Shown here: one piece after another, positions 947-7,072 of the stretch
How the letters are laid out: each line of letters starts with the position of its first letter
How positions within the stretch are numbered: position 1 is the stretch's first letter
Assembly: GCA_012729555.1 (NCBI GenBank)
Contig: JAAYCX010000013.1
Span: 1 to 64,000, forward strand
DNA length: 64,000 bases
Direction: 5' to 3'
Source: Acidobacteriota bacterium
GTDB taxonomy: Bacteria > Acidobacteriota > UBA6911
Made by a program: the position numbers and the translations under genes
Notes under the pieces: generated by a model
Seen by the model: only the letters and a program-made list of their open reading frames with translations
Told to the model about the DNA's origin: nothing
Databases searched by the model: none

Positions 947-1651
947 ATGGCCGACGATAAGAAGGTATTGAGGCGCGATTTTCTGAAGAGCGGGGGGACC
1001 GCCCTCGCCGCGGGGGCCCTGACGGTGGGGGCGCCGCTCGCCGCGGCGCCTCCGGCCGTGGAGGCCGCCGTTTCCCATGCGGCGTCCAAGGGGTATATCG
1101 TCTACGACAGCCGGCTCTGCTTCGGCTGCCAGAGCTGCATGTACGCCTGCTCGATGACGCACGAGGGGGTGGCGAACCCTTCGCTTTCGAGGATCCAGAT
1201 CATCCGCGACGCCCCCTCCTTCACCAAGTACCCCTATGACATCGTGATGTCGGTCTGCCGCCAGTGCGTCACCCCCGTCTGCGTGCAGAACTGCCCGACC
1301 GGCGCCTGTCACATCGATGCCGCCAACGGGAACGTACGCCGCATCGACCAGGAAAAATGCATCGGCTGCAAGCGCTGCATCCAGTCGTGCCCCCAGAGGC
1401 CCCACCGGACGGTCTGGGACCCGGGGAAGAAGAAATCGACCAAGTGCGACCTCTGCGTCGACGCCCCGTACTGGAACCACAAGGGGGGGCCCGGGGGAGA
1501 ACAGGCGTGTGTCAGCGTCTGCCCGGCCAAGGCGCTCAAGCTGGTGGACAAGGCGCCGTCGCAGACCGACATCGCCGGCTACGACGTGAACCTGGCGCCG
1601 CCCCCCCGGCCCAAGGCCGCTTTCCCCGTGCCGCCCCCCTCCCAGGAATAG
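947..1651 (+). CDS. Tat-exported 4Fe-4S ferredoxin-type electron transfer subunit
   Basis: 234 residues. The N-terminus has a twin-arginine signal (RRDFLKSG, followed by an Ala/Gly-rich hydrophobic stretch), so the protein should be exported folded with its clusters. Four cysteine groups of the DmsB/NrfC type follow: CFGCQSCMYAC, CRQCVTPVCVQNCP, CIGCKRCIQSCP and CDLC...CVSVCP, enough for four [4Fe-4S] clusters. The ATG at 947 is preceded by GGGAGA at suitable spacing. It lies between a molybdenum hydroxylase and a UGSC-family protein, all on the same strand, suggesting one periplasmic redox unit. The C-terminus is proline-rich. Family assignment is secure; the partner assignment is inferred from position. 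Confidence 0.88.
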   Translation: MADDKKVLRRDFLKSGGTALAAGALTVGAPLAAAPPAVEAAVSHAASKGYIVYDSRLCFGCQSCMYACSMTHEGVANPSLSRIQIIRDAPSFTKYPYDIVMSVCRQCVTPVCVQNCPTGACHIDAANGNVRRIDQEKCIGCKRCIQSCPQRPHRTVWDPGKKKSTKCDLCVDAPYWNHKGGPGGEQACVSVCPAKALKLVDKAPSQTDIAGYDVNLAPPPRPKAAFPVPPPSQE

Positions 1652-1764
1652 GGGGATCCGGGGGAAACCCGGGACCGGCTGGAGGGGCGCACGAAAATGC
1701 CCGCCGGCGCAGCGCGGCGGAAGCGCATCATCCTGATCGAGCCATTTTGAGGGGAGGGGGAGCC

Positions 1765-3516
1765 ATGAAGACATCCGTCCTGTCGGGAGCCGTCCTGCTT
1801 TTTTCCGCCGTCCTGATCTCCGCCGGGGGGACGGCGCCCGTCGCCGGCCAGGAAGCCCCCGACACCACCGCGGAGCGGCGCGTCACGGTCCTCAACCCGG
1901 CGATCGCCACGAAGCTGGTGGAGCGGGTGCCGCTCGCGCCGCGGACCCCTTCGCTCGAAGGAAAGACCCTCTACCTGGTCGACCTGCAGTGGGGGGGACC
2001 CGAGGCGGCCTACAGCGTCTTCGAGGAAATGCGGGACTGGTTCGCCCGAAACATCCCCTCGGTAAAGATCGAAATCCGGCGCTCCGCCGGGGGGCCGTTC
2101 GGCGACGACGCCGGGCTGCGGAAGGAGATCCTGGCCTCGGGGGCGGCGGGCGCCGTCATCGGGATAGGCGGTTGACACGGCTGCGTATCGGCCGTGAGCC
2201 GGTTTGCGCGGAACCTCGAACTTGAAGGCCGCATCCCCACCGTCGGCGCCTCCGCCGTCAATGTCGTGAAATTCAAGGACTACGAGCTCCAGTATTCCAA
2301 CGGCATGCCGATCCGCTACGTGGCGGTTCCCTTCCCCGTGGCCGGCCAGCCCCGAAGCGTCCACCGGGCCTACGTCGAGGGGAAGGACCTCCTCTCCGGC
2401 AAACCGATGATGCGGGCCGTCATCGACGCCCTGACGGCCCCGCTCACGGCCGAAGAGAAGCGCGCCGGGATGCCGCCGGCCGCCGCGCCCGAGCCGAGGC
2501 TCCTGGCGCCCGGCACGGAGGACGATCTCCAGCGCCTGTTCAAGGAGAGGGAGTGGACCGACTTCCTCCCCGTCGTCCTCCCGACCGAAAAGCGGGTGGC
2601 GGCCATGCTGCGGGGGACCAGCCGCAAGCCGGAAGAAGTGGTCAGCCGGACGGGCTCCCGGGAACTGACGGTGGAGAAGGCGGCGGTTTACGCCGTCATG
2701 GCCGGCGCCCGGCCCGAGTACTTCCCCGCCATCCTCGCGACGCTGACGCAGGCCCCCTCTTTCGGGAACTCCACCAGCTCCATGGCGAACATGATCGTCT
2801 TCAACGGGCCGGTCCGCCGGCGGCTCGGGATCCACTCGGGGACCGATGTGATGGGCCCCTTCAGCGAGGCCAACTCCGTCATCGGCCGCACCTTCACCCT
2901 GGCGGGCAAGATCCTGGGGGACCTCCGTCTCAACGTGGGAGCCTATTCGACCCTGGGCAGCGCGCTGCAATACAACAACCTCTGCATCGCCGAGAACGAG
3001 GAACTCCTCCCCGCCGGCTGGAATTCCCTCAGCGTCGAGATGGGGTTCAAGCCGGAGGAGGACGTGGTCAGCGTCGGCATTGGCTGGAGCTACATCTCGA
3101 GCGTGGGGGAGGCGCAGAGCGCCCACCCGCCCCACATGCTCATCCGCGACTACATGCGCTCGCTCTACGGCTCGGCCGCGACCATCGTCATGGACCCGAC
3201 CGTGGCCGGCCTGCTCAGGGACGTGCACGGCTTCAAATCCAAATCGGAGCTCGGCCGGTGGCTGGCGGACAACGTCGAGGTGGCCGCCTCCACCTTCTGG
3301 GGGAACGGCGTCAACACCACGGCCAGCATGCCGATGGCCCTCCAGGGGCTGGAACCGTTCGCGGGCTGGATGAAGGCGCCGCCGGACACCCTGATCAAAC
3401 CCTTCACCAACGCCCGCTCCATCCAGGTCATCGTCGCCGGCGGGAATATCCAGACCACCTGGTTCGCGACCGATTTCCGCTTCGGCCGGGGCATCCCCAT
3501 CACCCCCTGGAAATAA
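1765..3516 (+). CDS. UGSC-family selenoprotein with in-frame UGA (probable selenocysteine at residue 137)
   Basis: A signal peptide (MKTSVLSGAVLLFSAVLIS) is followed by one protein family that runs across a TGA at 2173-2175. Read through, the junction is AVIGIGG-U-HGC followed by VSAVSRFARNLELEGRIPTV. This matches the UGSC family, where U-G-S-C sits at the same place before a RGIPTV-like segment. The downstream half (EKAAVYAVMAGARPEYFPAI, FNGPVRRRLGIHSG, CIAENEE) is typical of the rest of that family. ATG 1765 has a strong GGGGAGGGGG ribosome binding site, whereas the possible restart GTG at 2194 has none. A SECIS-like hairpin follows the TGA. Total length would be 583 residues. The reaction is unknown; a redox role is inferred from the UxxC motif and the neighbouring ferredoxin. 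The alternative is a plain nonsense mutation in a broken gene, less likely because both halves look intact. Confidence 0.8.
2182..2208 (+). promoter_or_regulatory. bSECIS-like hairpin after the UGA of the UGSC gene
   Basis: Counting the TGA at 2173-2175 as bases 1-3, bases 17-20 (CGGC) pair with 26-29 (GCCG) around the loop CGTGA. The stem continues with a U-G and an A-U pair, a U-U mismatch, then four more pairs (two of them G-U). Its apical loop lies about 18-22 bases after the UGA, the range expected of bacterial selenocysteine insertion elements, and carries a G near its 5' side. Pairing was done by eye; folding energy was not computed. Confidence 0.55.
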
Positions 3517-3518
3517 TC

Positions 3519-3702
3519 AAATCCTGGACATCCACTCTTTGGGAAATTGTGGACATCCACCAAATGAGAGCCCCTGATCCTGGACATCCACCAATTCTGG
3601 ACATCCACTGATCCTGGATGTCGGCCAATCCTGGACACCCACAGATTGACATGGAAGGACCTCAACCCGGACCCGCACCCGATTGGTGGGTGTCCAGGAT
3701 TT
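3519..3702. repeat. Cluster of TGGACATCCAC repeats (family C)
   Basis: Exact copies of TGGACATCCAC lie at 3525-3535, 3550-3560, 3581-3591 and 3598-3608. Variants lie at 3616 (TGGATGTCGGCC) and 3632-3642 (TGGACACCCAC), and an inverted copy (GTGGGTGTCCA) at 3686-3696. Each is usually preceded by AATCC or AATTG. The same element recurs between and after the two aldo/keto reductase genes. The rest of the 290-base gap before the next gene holds no recognisable gene. Confidence 0.9.
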
Positions 3703-3806
3703 GGGGCCGGCCCCCGGGATCGCCCAATGGTATATTGTTAGAAGACCATCGGGTGCCCGAGCGCGTCCTGCAGGCGCACTTGCACCCGACCAGAGGAGGA
3801 CGCACC

Positions 3807-5324
3807 ATGGCCGGTTTCCCGGATACCCCCCTTTCGAGGCGAAAATTTCTCAAGGGCGCCACGCTCGTATCCGCGAGCCTCTCCCTCGGACCCCATTTCG
3901 TCTTTGGCAAAACCGGGCCCGACCGCCTGATGAAGCGTCCCATCGGACGCCTCGGTTTCGAGGCGACAACCCTCGGCCTGGGAGGCCAATCCTCCCTGCA
4001 GTGGACCCCCGCGGACGAGGATCCCGTCAGGATCATCCTCAAGGCCTTCGACCTCGGGATCAATTATTACGACACCTCGAACGTCTACGGCCCCAGCCAG
4101 TCCAACTACGGCAAGGCGTTCCGCGAGCTTCACCTGGTCCCCGGGCGGCCGGGGTACAACGAACGGCTCCGCCGCTCCTTCTTCCTGACCACGAAGACGA
4201 TGCTCCGCTTCGGCAAGGGAGGGTGGAAGAAGGAGGGGCTCTGGAGCTGGACCGACGGCGCCCAGGGATCGACCACTGTGGACGACATCCGGCGCACCCT
4301 GTCGCTCGTCTTCGGAGACGGGCAGGGGGCCTACCCCAGGGGGGCCTACGTCGACATGGTCCTGGTTCACGCCCTGGAGAGCCAGGCCGACATCGAGGCA
4401 GTCTACGAGGGGTACGGCCATCCCGATCCCAAGGCGGAGCACATCGGCGCGCTGACCACTCTCGTCGACTTCCGGGACGGCACCAACCTCACGGGCCTCA
4501 ACCCGAAGGAGGAAAGGCTCCTGCGCCATATCGGCTTCTCGGCCCACGCCTCGCCGGCCACCACGATGGAGATGATCCAGCGCGACCACCGGGGGGTGCT
4601 CGACGGGTTGCTCGTGGCCATCAACGCCAACGACCGGATGAACTTCAGCATGCAGCTGAACGCGATCCCCGTGGCCGCGGCCAACAATATCGGCGTCATC
4701 GCCATGAAGGTGTTCGCCGACGGCGCCATGTATTCCAAACCGGCGACCTGGACCAGCCGGGCCGACATGCTGGTCAGGACCGTGGGCAGCCCCGCGCTTC
4801 CCAGCCGCCGGCTGGTGGAATACTCCCTGACCACCCCCGGCGTTCATACCGCCGTCATCGGCATCGGGCACATCGACAGCGACTCCGCAGCCTGCCAGCT
4901 CGAGCAGAACCTCCTTGCCGCCCAGGTCGAACCGGCCGCCCTCGGCGCGGGCGACCGCCGCGCGATCGAAGAGCTGGCGCATTCGGCCAAGGAGGGCAAA
5001 ACCAACTACTTCCAGGCCGCCGCACAGCCCCTGGGCTCCCCGCGCTCGCCGGAAGCCAGCCAGCGGATGCGGGGAGAGCGGCGCACGGCGAGGCTTGAGT
5101 GGCATACGGCTTACGCGGGAGACGAACCTCTGGTGCGGTACGAAATCTGGCGCGACGGCCGGAAAACGGCCGAGACGCCCCACAAGCCGCAGGCCAGGCT
5201 GAACACCCCCTTCGCCTTCGAGGAAACCCTGGCCGACCGTTCCGCCCATCGCTACCGGGTGGTCGCCGTGGACCGCGCGGGAAGGAGGGCCGGGACCGAA
5301 GAGCTGGACCTTCCAAACATCTGA
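3807..5324 (+). CDS. Tat-exported aldo/keto reductase with C-terminal fibronectin III-like tail (copy 1)
   Basis: 505 residues. The Tat signal (SRRKFLKG) precedes an aldo/keto reductase barrel beginning RPIGRLGFEATTLGLGGQ. The usual catalytic set is visible: Asp and Tyr in YDTSNVYGPSQS, Lys in LTTKTML and His in MVLVHALE. The family reduces or oxidises carbonyl/alcohol groups of sugars and related compounds with NAD(P)H. After the barrel, the last 90 or so residues (EWHTAYAGDEPLVRYEIWRDG ending HRYRVVAVDRAGRR) resemble a fibronectin III module. ATG 3807 follows AGAGGAGGA. A second, closely similar gene follows directly, so this is a tandem duplicate. Export with a nucleotide cofactor makes Tat use plausible. 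The substrate is unknown. Confidence 0.85.
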   Translation: MAGFPDTPLSRRKFLKGATLVSASLSLGPHFVFGKTGPDRLMKRPIGRLGFEATTLGLGGQSSLQWTPADEDPVRIILKAFDLGINYYDTSNVYGPSQSNYGKAFRELHLVPGRPGYNERLRRSFFLTTKTMLRFGKGGWKKEGLWSWTDGAQGSTTVDDIRRTLSLVFGDGQGAYPRGAYVDMVLVHALESQADIEAVYEGYGHPDPKAEHIGALTTLVDFRDGTNLTGLNPKEERLLRHIGFSAHASPATTMEMIQRDHRGVLDGLLVAINANDRMNFSMQLNAIPVAAANNIGVIAMKVFADGAMYSKPATWTSRADMLVRTVGSPALPSRRLVEYSLTTPGVHTAVIGIGHIDSDSAACQLEQNLLAAQVEPAALGAGDRRAIEELAHSAKEGKTNYFQAAAQPLGSPRSPEASQRMRGERRTARLEWHTAYAGDEPLVRYEIWRDGRKTAETPHKPQARLNTPFAFEETLADRSAHRYRVVAVDRAGRRAGTEELDLPNI

Positions 5325-5331
5325 GGCTCAC

Positions 5332-5380
5332 AAATCGTGGACATCCACCCATTCACACAATGTGTGGATGTCCACGATTT
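5332..5380. repeat. Perfect inverted pair of family C repeats, possible terminator
   Basis: Arms 5332-5348 and 5364-5380 are exact reverse complements over 17 bases (AAATCGTGGACATCCAC and its complement) with a 15-base loop. It begins 7 bases after the stop of the first aldo/keto reductase and ends 19 bases before the next start. It could act as a transcription terminator or RNA-stabilising hairpin, but it lacks a T tract. Confidence 0.9.
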
Positions 5381-5399: not shown

Positions 5400-6911
5400 A
5401 TGGCTGAAATGATCGAATGCACCGTCCCCCGCCGGCGGTTTATCCGGACCGCCGCCGCGGCCTCGGCCGGACTGGCCCTCGGACCCTGGTTTGTTTTCGG
5501 AAAGGCCAGGCCCGCCCGCCTCATGAAGCGCCCGATGGGGCGCCTCGGCTTCGAGGCCACCACCCTCGGCCTGGGGGGACAGGCATCCCTGCAGTGGACT
5601 CCCGCGGACGAAGACCCTGTCAGGATCATCCTCAAGGCTTTCGATCTCGGGGTGAATTACTACGACACCTCAAACGTCTACGACGGCAGCCAGTCCTTCT
5701 ACGGCAAGGCCTTCCGCGAGCTTCACCTGATCCCCGGGCAGGCGGGGTACAACGAGAGTCTCCGTCGATCCATCTTCCTGACGAGCAAGACCGCCCTCCG
5801 CTTCGGCAAAGGGGGATGGCAGAAACAGGGCCTGATCAACGTCTCCAACGGCAAGGGCGGCCACACGGCGGACGATTTGCGGCGGACCCTGTCGCAGGTC
5901 TTCGGGGACGGGCAGGGGGGGTATCCCGGCGGCTCCTACCTGAACATGGTGCTGCTGCACAGCATCTCGACCATGGCCGACATCGACGCCGCCTTCGAGG
6001 GGTACGACAAACCCGACCCGAAAGCGGAGACCATCGGCGCCCTGGCCACGCTAGTCGACTTCCGCGACGGCACCAACCTCACCGGCCTCAATCCGAAGGA
6101 GGAAAAGCTCATCCGCCACATCGGCTTCTCGGGCCACGCGGCCCCCGATATCATGATGGAGATCATCCAGAGGGATCGCCGTCGGGTCCTGGACGGGATG
6201 CTCGTGGCCATCAACGCCAACGACCGGATGAATTTCAGCATGCAGTACAACGTCATCCCGGTGGCCGCGGCAAACGACATCGGCGTCATCGCCATGAAGG
6301 TGTTCGCCGACGGCGCCATGTACTCGAAACCTGCCACCTGGACCAGCCGCCCCGACATGGTGGTCCGGACCGTGGGAAGCCCCTCCCTCCCCAGCCACCG
6401 GCTGGTGGAATATGCCTTGACCACCCCCGGGGTCCACACGGCCATTATCGGCACCGGGCATATCGATCCCGATGCGTCGGCGTGCCAGCTGGAGCAGAAC
6501 CTGCTCGCCGCCCAGGTCGAACCCGACGCGTTCGCCGTCTCCGACCGACGCGAGATCGAAAAAATGGCCCGCACTGCCAAGGAGGGCAAAACCAACTACT
6601 TCCAGGCCGCCGCCCAGCCGCTCGGAGGGCCGCGCGAAGCCGCGGCCGATCAGCACCTGCGGGAAGGCCATCGGATTTCCAGCGTCAGATGGCAGACGGC
6701 CTACGCGGGGGACGAGCCCTTGGCCCGCTATGAAATCTGGCGGGACGACCGGAAAGCGGGGGAGGTGCCCCACAGGCCGCAGGCCGATCGGACCCCCTTT
6801 TCCTTCGAGGAAAGGCTCGGGGACAAGGCGGCACACCGATACCGGGTCGTGGCGGTGGACGCCGCCGGACGGAGGGCCGAGACGGCCGATCTGGACCTGC
6901 CCGCCGTCTAG
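5400..6911 (+). CDS. Tat-exported aldo/keto reductase with C-terminal fibronectin III-like tail (copy 2)
   Basis: 503 residues, collinear and highly similar to the gene just upstream over its whole length. Shared segments include RLGFEATTLGLGGQ, SLQWTPADEDPVRIILKAFD and INANDRMNFSMQ. The Tat signal (PRRRFIRT) differs most. The same Asp/Tyr (YDTSNVYDGSQS), Lys (LTSKTAL) and His (VLLHSI) of the aldo/keto reductase family are present, with the same Fn3-like tail (YEIWRDDRKAGE). ATG 5400 has AAGGAG at 8 bases; the longer frame would begin inside the repeat hairpin. Tandem duplication followed by divergence is the simplest history. Whether both copies are active on the same substrate is unknown. 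Confidence 0.85.
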   Translation: MAEMIECTVPRRRFIRTAAAASAGLALGPWFVFGKARPARLMKRPMGRLGFEATTLGLGGQASLQWTPADEDPVRIILKAFDLGVNYYDTSNVYDGSQSFYGKAFRELHLIPGQAGYNESLRRSIFLTSKTALRFGKGGWQKQGLINVSNGKGGHTADDLRRTLSQVFGDGQGGYPGGSYLNMVLLHSISTMADIDAAFEGYDKPDPKAETIGALATLVDFRDGTNLTGLNPKEEKLIRHIGFSGHAAPDIMMEIIQRDRRRVLDGMLVAINANDRMNFSMQYNVIPVAAANDIGVIAMKVFADGAMYSKPATWTSRPDMVVRTVGSPSLPSHRLVEYALTTPGVHTAIIGTGHIDPDASACQLEQNLLAAQVEPDAFAVSDRREIEKMARTAKEGKTNYFQAAAQPLGGPREAAADQHLREGHRISSVRWQTAYAGDEPLARYEIWRDDRKAGEVPHRPQADRTPFSFEERLGDKAAHRYRVVAVDAAGRRAETADLDLPAV

Positions 6912-6926: not shown

Positions 6927-7072
6927 GAAATCGTGGATGAAATCCTGGACATCCACCAATTGCCACGGATCGGCTCTTCCCAAAAGAGTGGATGTCCACA
7001 ATTGAAATCATGGACACCCACTCTTTGAAGGGTTCAGCGTAAAAGGTGGATGTCCACTATTTCAGGTGGATG
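6927..7072. repeat. Family C repeat cluster after the second aldo/keto reductase
   Basis: Contains TGGACATCCAC at 6946-6956, GTGGATGTCCAC at 6988-6999, TGGACACCCAC at 7011-7021 and GTGGATGTCCAC at 7046-7057. The last copy ends on the stop codon of the converging GH2 gene. Copies in both directions can form several alternative hairpins. No gene is visible between 6912 and 7056. Confidence 0.88.

Follow-up and report, generated by a model that had tools for sequence, protein, structure and literature searches.

A predicted exported selenoprotein of the UGSC superfamily, one of 18 selenocysteine paralogues in an Acidobacteriota genome

Selenoproteins are usually few in a bacterial genome. The UGSC proteins are among the commonest aquatic selenoprotein families and their function is unknown. 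Selenoprotein B of glycine reductase (GrdB) works with a partner subunit that sometimes bears a pyruvoyl group. The motif of the UGSC family has been tabulated as UxxC (PMC2398784, PMC9312934). The Global Ocean Sampling (GOS) paper suggested a Trx-like fold for these proteins and mentioned a fusion of UGSC to an unknown domain, Unknown_1 (PMC2398784). Selenocysteine (Sec) is a catalytic nucleophile in the GrdB-type family: the glycine and proline reductases use the selenolate to attack carbon, after which the selenoether is cleaved and a selenenylsulfide is formed (PMC10298544). GrdB-type Sec enzymes elsewhere are multi-copy and substrate-specific, a GrdB-like protein has been implicated in carbon-fluorine cleavage, and a genome with eight Sec-type grdB genes was remarked on for their overabundance (PMC10838667). 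The reported maxima of 57 and 63 refer to whole selenoproteomes (PMC13188914).

The gene studied here lies near the start of the window, that is, the whole stretch of 64,000 nucleotides that was analysed. Its features, and those of its upstream neighbours, are listed below.

3-890, + strand: xanthine-dehydrogenase (XDH)-type molybdenum hydroxylase, C-terminal part (295 residues present), cut by the contig end; putative partner only
947-1651, + strand: Tat-type 4Fe-4S ferredoxin-like protein, a neighbour whose membership in the system is only putative
1751-1762, + strand: putative Shine-Dalgarno-like purine-rich stretch GGGGAGGGGGAG, from sequence
1765-3516, + strand: selenoprotein coding sequence, 583 aa, Sec at residue 137, ATG start, TAA stop
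1765-1851, + strand: signal-peptide-like N-terminus, residues ~1-29 (hydrophobic stretch, basic n-region, low pLDDT over residues 1-34)
1888-2376, + strand: UGSC (Sec) domain, residues 42-204 (PF24696 match, AlphaFold2 model)
2173-2175, + strand: TGA read as Sec137, with which a helix begins (alignment, selection, model)
2182-2184, + strand: codon of Cys140, the invariant second residue of the UxxC pair (alignment)
2182-2208, + strand: bSECIS-type hairpin UGCGUAUCGGC[CGUGA]GCCGGUUUGCG (folding, covariation)
2476-3513, + strand: C-terminal domain, 346 aa, with no Pfam family or close solved fold (Pfam and structure comparison)

The reading frame, the TGA codon and the downstream hairpin

The frame 1765-3516 is interrupted once, by the TGA at codon 137, and reads GIGG-U-HGC. 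The match to PF24696 (UGSC) crosses this site with an E-value of 2.4e-7 and 31.5 bits, above the cut-off of 25. An earlier sequence-only reading, which saw the family sequence continue unbroken across the TGA and proposed an exported selenoprotein of the UGSC superfamily, is thereby supported, as it is by the signal-peptide-like N-terminus and the conservation of the TGA. The score against the NCBIfam UGSC_fam equivalog NF041046 is 19.7 bits, below the curated cut-off of 125, and the gene product is therefore a distant member of UGSC. The protein is very probably exported, to judge from its N-terminus, with cleavage of the signal peptide expected near AGQ/E. Compared with L044, the nearest relative outside the genome (72% identity), the gene has a dN/dS of 0.08 upstream and 0.13 downstream of the TGA, and in other near pairs the downstream value lies between 0.06 and 0.23. 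Such low values after the TGA are strong evidence that the downstream part is translated in frame, and selection is purifying on either side of the codon.

The genome (3.83 Mb, 98 contigs, 98.9% complete) encodes the complete selenocysteine machinery on which the sequence-only reading depended: tRNA-Sec (selC, 72.4 bits), selB (380), selA (564) and selD (369) all score above curated cut-offs. The selD gene (contig C9:39575-40507) has one in-frame TGA of its own and its product is probably a selenoprotein too. Reassignment of TGA was considered and rejected, TGA being the normal stop codon that ends other family members, for example in loci L016 and L018.

A bSECIS element has its apical loop roughly 16-37 nt after the UGA and a G early in that loop. 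The hairpin at 2182-2208 comprises 10 pairs and one mismatch, and its apical loop CGUGA (2193-2197), with G in second place, begins 20 nt after the U of the UGA. The 27-nt hairpin folds at -12.0 kcal/mol, with a z of -2.1 when compared with dinucleotide shuffles and of -1.3 with synonymous ones; taken alone, its stability is moderate only. In this gene by itself, the 48 nt that follow the TGA do not fold significantly (z -0.57) and have a competing fold; the case for a SECIS element rests on the relatives. In 31 sequences of the hairpin's class the stem shows 79.7% pairing and six pairs are changed on both sides. Its covariation score over these relatives is 0.276, compared with 0.008-0.115 for slid partners, and is reached by none of 500 shuffles. 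The SECIS-like hairpin noticed at the right distance in the sequence-only reading thus covaries across relatives. A strong hairpin with an early-loop G occurs in 58% of 108 Sec genes as against 19% after synonymous shuffling, the counts coming from related sequences that are not independent events; the mean folding z is -1.22 for Sec genes and -0.10 for control windows. The stem is also conserved in the GHUSxC class, with weaker covariation, and is not clearly evident in the three UGSC-motif paralogues by folding and a rule-based hairpin scan. An Rfam scan of positions 1500-4000 returned sub-threshold chance matches only. Judged from sequence comparison, TGA 2173 is almost certainly recoded to Sec by the standard selABCD/tRNA-Sec system together with the bSECIS hairpin just downstream.

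Paralogues, relatives and gene neighbourhoods

The genome contains 18 Sec genes of this family, namely the gene at 1765-3516 and 17 further full-length paralogues whose products are 28-58% identical to its own. Each of the 18 has one in-frame TGA in the same alignment column and each has the UxxC motif, as UHGC, UDGC, UDSC, UWGC, UPGC, USSC, USQC, USLC, USVC or UGSC. All of them match PF24696 (E up to 10), and 16 display a signal-peptide-like N-terminus according to a simple hydrophobicity rule and inspection; some relatives from other lineages do not. A mixture of strains was rejected as the source of the 18 copies, given their identity of only 28-58% to the gene product. The expansion extends to the genus, with 11-35 family matches in each of ten genomes searched and at least 6-18 TGA-bearing members per genome among the matches listed. 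Other genera of the same taxonomic family have none or one match, and in the rest of the phylum, where scoring covered five candidates per genome, few matches turned up, most of them to the C-terminal part and lacking a TGA. The sequence-only reading was right about the identity of the protein as a selenoprotein and overlooked what matters most, its place among 18 Sec paralogues of the genome.

The expansion of one family to 18 Sec genes looks undescribed. In an incomplete search of the literature, no mention was found of an expansion of such size in one genome, of the link to GrdB or of the unmatched C-terminal fold. Ordinary gene calling splits every copy at the TGA, and these proteins are therefore easily missed in annotation. 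That a single family has 18 Sec copies suggests that selenium chemistry is used here as a diversified strategy for catabolism or respiration.

A scan of GTDB genomes yielded relatives in Acidobacteriota, Chloroflexi/Dehalococcoidia, Delta-, Gamma- and Betaproteobacteria, Actinobacteria, Rokubacteria and Bacillota. Paralogues and relatives together provide 108 distinct Sec sites and 5 Cys sites at the TGA column, so that the homologues bear Sec or Cys where their lack would have spoken against a selenoprotein; neither TAA nor TAG was seen there among the relatives. The five Cys sites read GHCSTC and all belong to Burkholderiales or other Betaproteobacteria. A minority of homologues (L026, L059, L085, L095) have neither residue. 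One of them (L026:6675-8384, - strand), reading GDMGTSPATC, is lined up with genes for an FAD oxidoreductase and a molybdenum hydroxylase of XDH type.

UHGC is one of about a dozen UxxC variants and is recurrent in Acidobacteriota, with nine sites in the tally (including L044, L053, L054, L055, L056, L057, L058 and L079); its recurrence in at least eight loci marks it as a lineage variant. The suggestion of the sequence-only reading that UHGC might be an undescribed motif is not supported, as both the UGSC family and the UxxC motif are already known. What is new is the number of Sec paralogues, 6-18 per genome, and not the letters UHGC.

No conserved operon partner emerged across the neighbourhoods compared. 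The recurrent neighbours vary by lineage and include short-chain dehydrogenases (SDR), tricarboxylate-transporter receptors, aldehyde:ferredoxin oxidoreductases (AOR), glycyl radical enzymes and a thioredoxin-reductase-like protein; aldo/keto reductases and PQQ dehydrogenases occur as well. These neighbourhoods resemble those of catabolic enzymes, a likeness that is suggestive only. At the locus itself, the signal-peptide-like N-terminus, the adjacent Tat ferredoxin and the molybdenum hydroxylase are all present as previously noticed. Downstream, two aldo/keto reductases that closely resemble each other stand in tandem (3807-5324 and 5409-6911); both have Tat-like signal sequences, and repeats separate them. 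The short repeat TCCTGGACATCCACC is found between genes at 3522-3699, 5335-5374 and 6943-7056, in both orientations. It has 87 genome copies at one mismatch or fewer (control pattern: 1), clustered on contigs C21, C41, C53, C79 and C93, and looks like a dispersed intergenic repeat. The genome is rich in Mo/W enzymes, with 18 matches to the AOR C-terminal domain and about 11 XDH-type matches; 18 AOR matches seem many for one genome.

Predicted fold and remote similarity to GrdB

The AlphaFold2 model of the full protein has a pLDDT of 85.7 and a pTM of 0.84, residues 1-34 being disordered as expected of a signal peptide. In this model, strands and helices alternate through the Sec domain in a doubly wound, Rossmann/flavodoxin-like arrangement in which Sec137 starts the helix after the third strand. 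The solved folds that match it (receiver, periplasmic-binding, lumazine synthase) are common doubly wound domains with Z of about 8-10, and the model does not support the Trx-like fold suggested earlier for UGSC proteins. The C-terminal domain, modelled alone, reaches a pLDDT of 92.3. It matches no Pfam family, and comparison of its fold by Foldseek and VIA-align, using the full model and the domain alone, gave no confident relative (best Z 5.7), with weak matches such as fumarase and the Toblerone fold at TM ~0.2. A search of PDB sequences with the family profile returned nothing significant.

Profile-profile alignment of the Sec domain with GrdB by hhalign gave a score of 42.9 (E 5e-6) over 46 columns and placed Sec on Sec; decoys reached 17.0 (shuffled), 18.7 (reversed) and 27.1 (20 unrelated families). 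Weak NCBIfam matches were obtained to GrdF in two members (best E 0.01) and to glycine reductase B in two (0.077), and PF07355 matched none of the 18 members at E up to 10. Remote homology of the Sec domain to GrdB of glycine/sarcosine reductase is probable on this profile-profile similarity. GrdB itself has no relative in the PDB. Classical GrdB was not found in the genome; the search for GrdA gave no match there, nor in any control genome.

Proteins of about 400 residues with a PVUPGC motif, encoded at loci L128 (3.3 kb, Dehalococcoidia) and L129, match the C-terminal part of PF07355. They also match the UGSC domain by profile (E 7e-6) and may be a bridge between the UGSC and GrdB groups.

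Proposed chemistry, rival readings and known systems

The best explanation overall, to which a probability of about 0.5 is given, is that the paralogues are two-domain Sec enzymes, mostly exported, related to GrdB and substrate-specific, acting by selenolate attack and Se-S resolution. Sec137 would begin a helix within a Rossmann-like domain akin to the one that carries Sec in GrdB-type reductases. A small organic substrate would bind between this Sec domain and the C-terminal domain, and the selenolate of Sec137 would attack a polarised bond in it that involves carbon or a heteroatom. Cys140 would then form a selenenylsulfide with Sec137, releasing the reduced substrate, and a thiol or thioredoxin-type reductant would regenerate the pair. 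Specificity would be set by the C-terminal domain and the residues around Sec; it is proposed that the differences among the paralogues, beside Sec and in the C-terminal domain, reflect a separate substrate for each. That such substrate-specific paralogues cleave small molecules reductively is put forward by analogy and tentatively, at somewhat less than even odds. In favour count the GrdB match, the multi-copy GrdB-type enzymes described elsewhere and the disulphide oxidoreductase gene preceding the family gene in L105 and L112. Against it stand the export of most paralogues, which puts them away from cytoplasmic thioredoxin, the limitation of the GrdB match to 46 columns, the homologues with neither Sec nor Cys, and the failure to find a conserved operon partner or a classical GrdB; an equivalent of the partner subunit of GrdB was not seen here. 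A broader proposal is doubtful as a whole: these proteins might form a new class of mostly exported, substrate-specific selenoenzymes that combine a GrdB-like Sec domain with a C-terminal domain of new fold, number 6-18 Sec-bearing copies in each genome of one Acidobacteriota genus, and reductively cleave, outside the cytoplasm, many organic compounds that might serve as electron acceptors, with a diversification comparable to that of the reductive dehalogenases of other anaerobes. A distant relationship to GrdB would provide the UGSC family with a chemistry that can be tested.

The main rival to reductive cleavage is a general thiol-redox role, which is considered rather unlikely. The paralogues would then be periplasmic thiol/disulfide or peroxide redox proteins whose UxxC cycles between selenol/thiol and selenenylsulfide, protecting or folding exported proteins without any small-molecule substrate. 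The UxxC motif itself, the signal peptides on most family members of the genome, the pyridine-nucleotide disulphide oxidoreductase gene directly upstream of a family gene in L105 and L112, and the Trx-like fold suggested in the GOS paper (PMC2398784) are in line with such a role. However, the model is doubly wound beta-alpha with Sec after the third strand, whereas the thioredoxin fold has its motif after strand one. The 18 strongly diverged paralogues and their large conserved C-terminal domain suggest substrate diversity and not housekeeping, and the presence of SDR, AOR, glycyl radical enzymes and PQQ dehydrogenases among the neighbours also argues against it.

A function tied to molybdenum is improbable. 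The protein would in that case be a subunit or maturation partner of the upstream molybdenum hydroxylase and Tat ferredoxin, or of Mo/W enzymes, for example inserting or reducing a sulfido ligand. The gene order at the locus, the presence of an AOR or XDH-type gene no further than 3 kb from five of the 18 family genes (binomial P ~0.003) and an AOR directly after a family gene in L067 point towards it; yet the closest orthologue, L044, has no molybdenum enzyme nearby, the other 13 paralogues have no AOR or XDH-type gene within 3 kb, and the many AOR genes of the genome make chance neighbours likely. Sulfuration of the Mo cofactor is moreover cytoplasmic, whereas the family member is exported according to its N-terminus. 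The molybdenum link drawn in the sequence-only reading is thus reduced to a weak association of the family with Mo/W enzymes, without conservation. Far less probable still is a true stop at the TGA, with a 136-residue secreted protein ending at 2173 and a second one starting at GTG 2194, or a decayed pseudogene. The GTG is present and the list of open reading frames divides the gene there, but 18 paralogues and relatives from several phyla share this one TGA, some relatives having Cys instead and none being seen with TAA or TAG in that column. Conservation extends over the residues from TGA to GTG, among them the invariant Cys140; dN/dS stays low before and after the TGA, PF24696 spans the site and the Sec machinery is in the genome.

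Compared with selenoprotein B of the glycine, sarcosine and D-proline reductases (GrdB/GrdF/PrdB; PF07355, TIGR01917, TIGR01918, NF040794), the gene product aligns Sec on Sec and then along a ...LE..GIPTV... segment. It differs by the missing PF07355 match, its predicted export and its other C-terminal domain, and no GrdE/GrdA-type partner was found. The Dehalococcoidia PVUPGC proteins share the UxxC Sec motif and the same downstream pattern, but have another downstream domain and no signal peptide that could be seen. From the UGSC family (PF24696, NF041046, the GOS selenoproteins) the gene product is distinguished by UHGC in place of UGSC, a C-terminal domain of about 350 residues, a signal peptide and 18 Sec paralogues in one genome, whereas the homologous Sec domain, the UxxC motif and the exchange of Sec and Cys are common to both. 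The Unknown_1 fusion mentioned in PMC2398784 may be the architecture found here.
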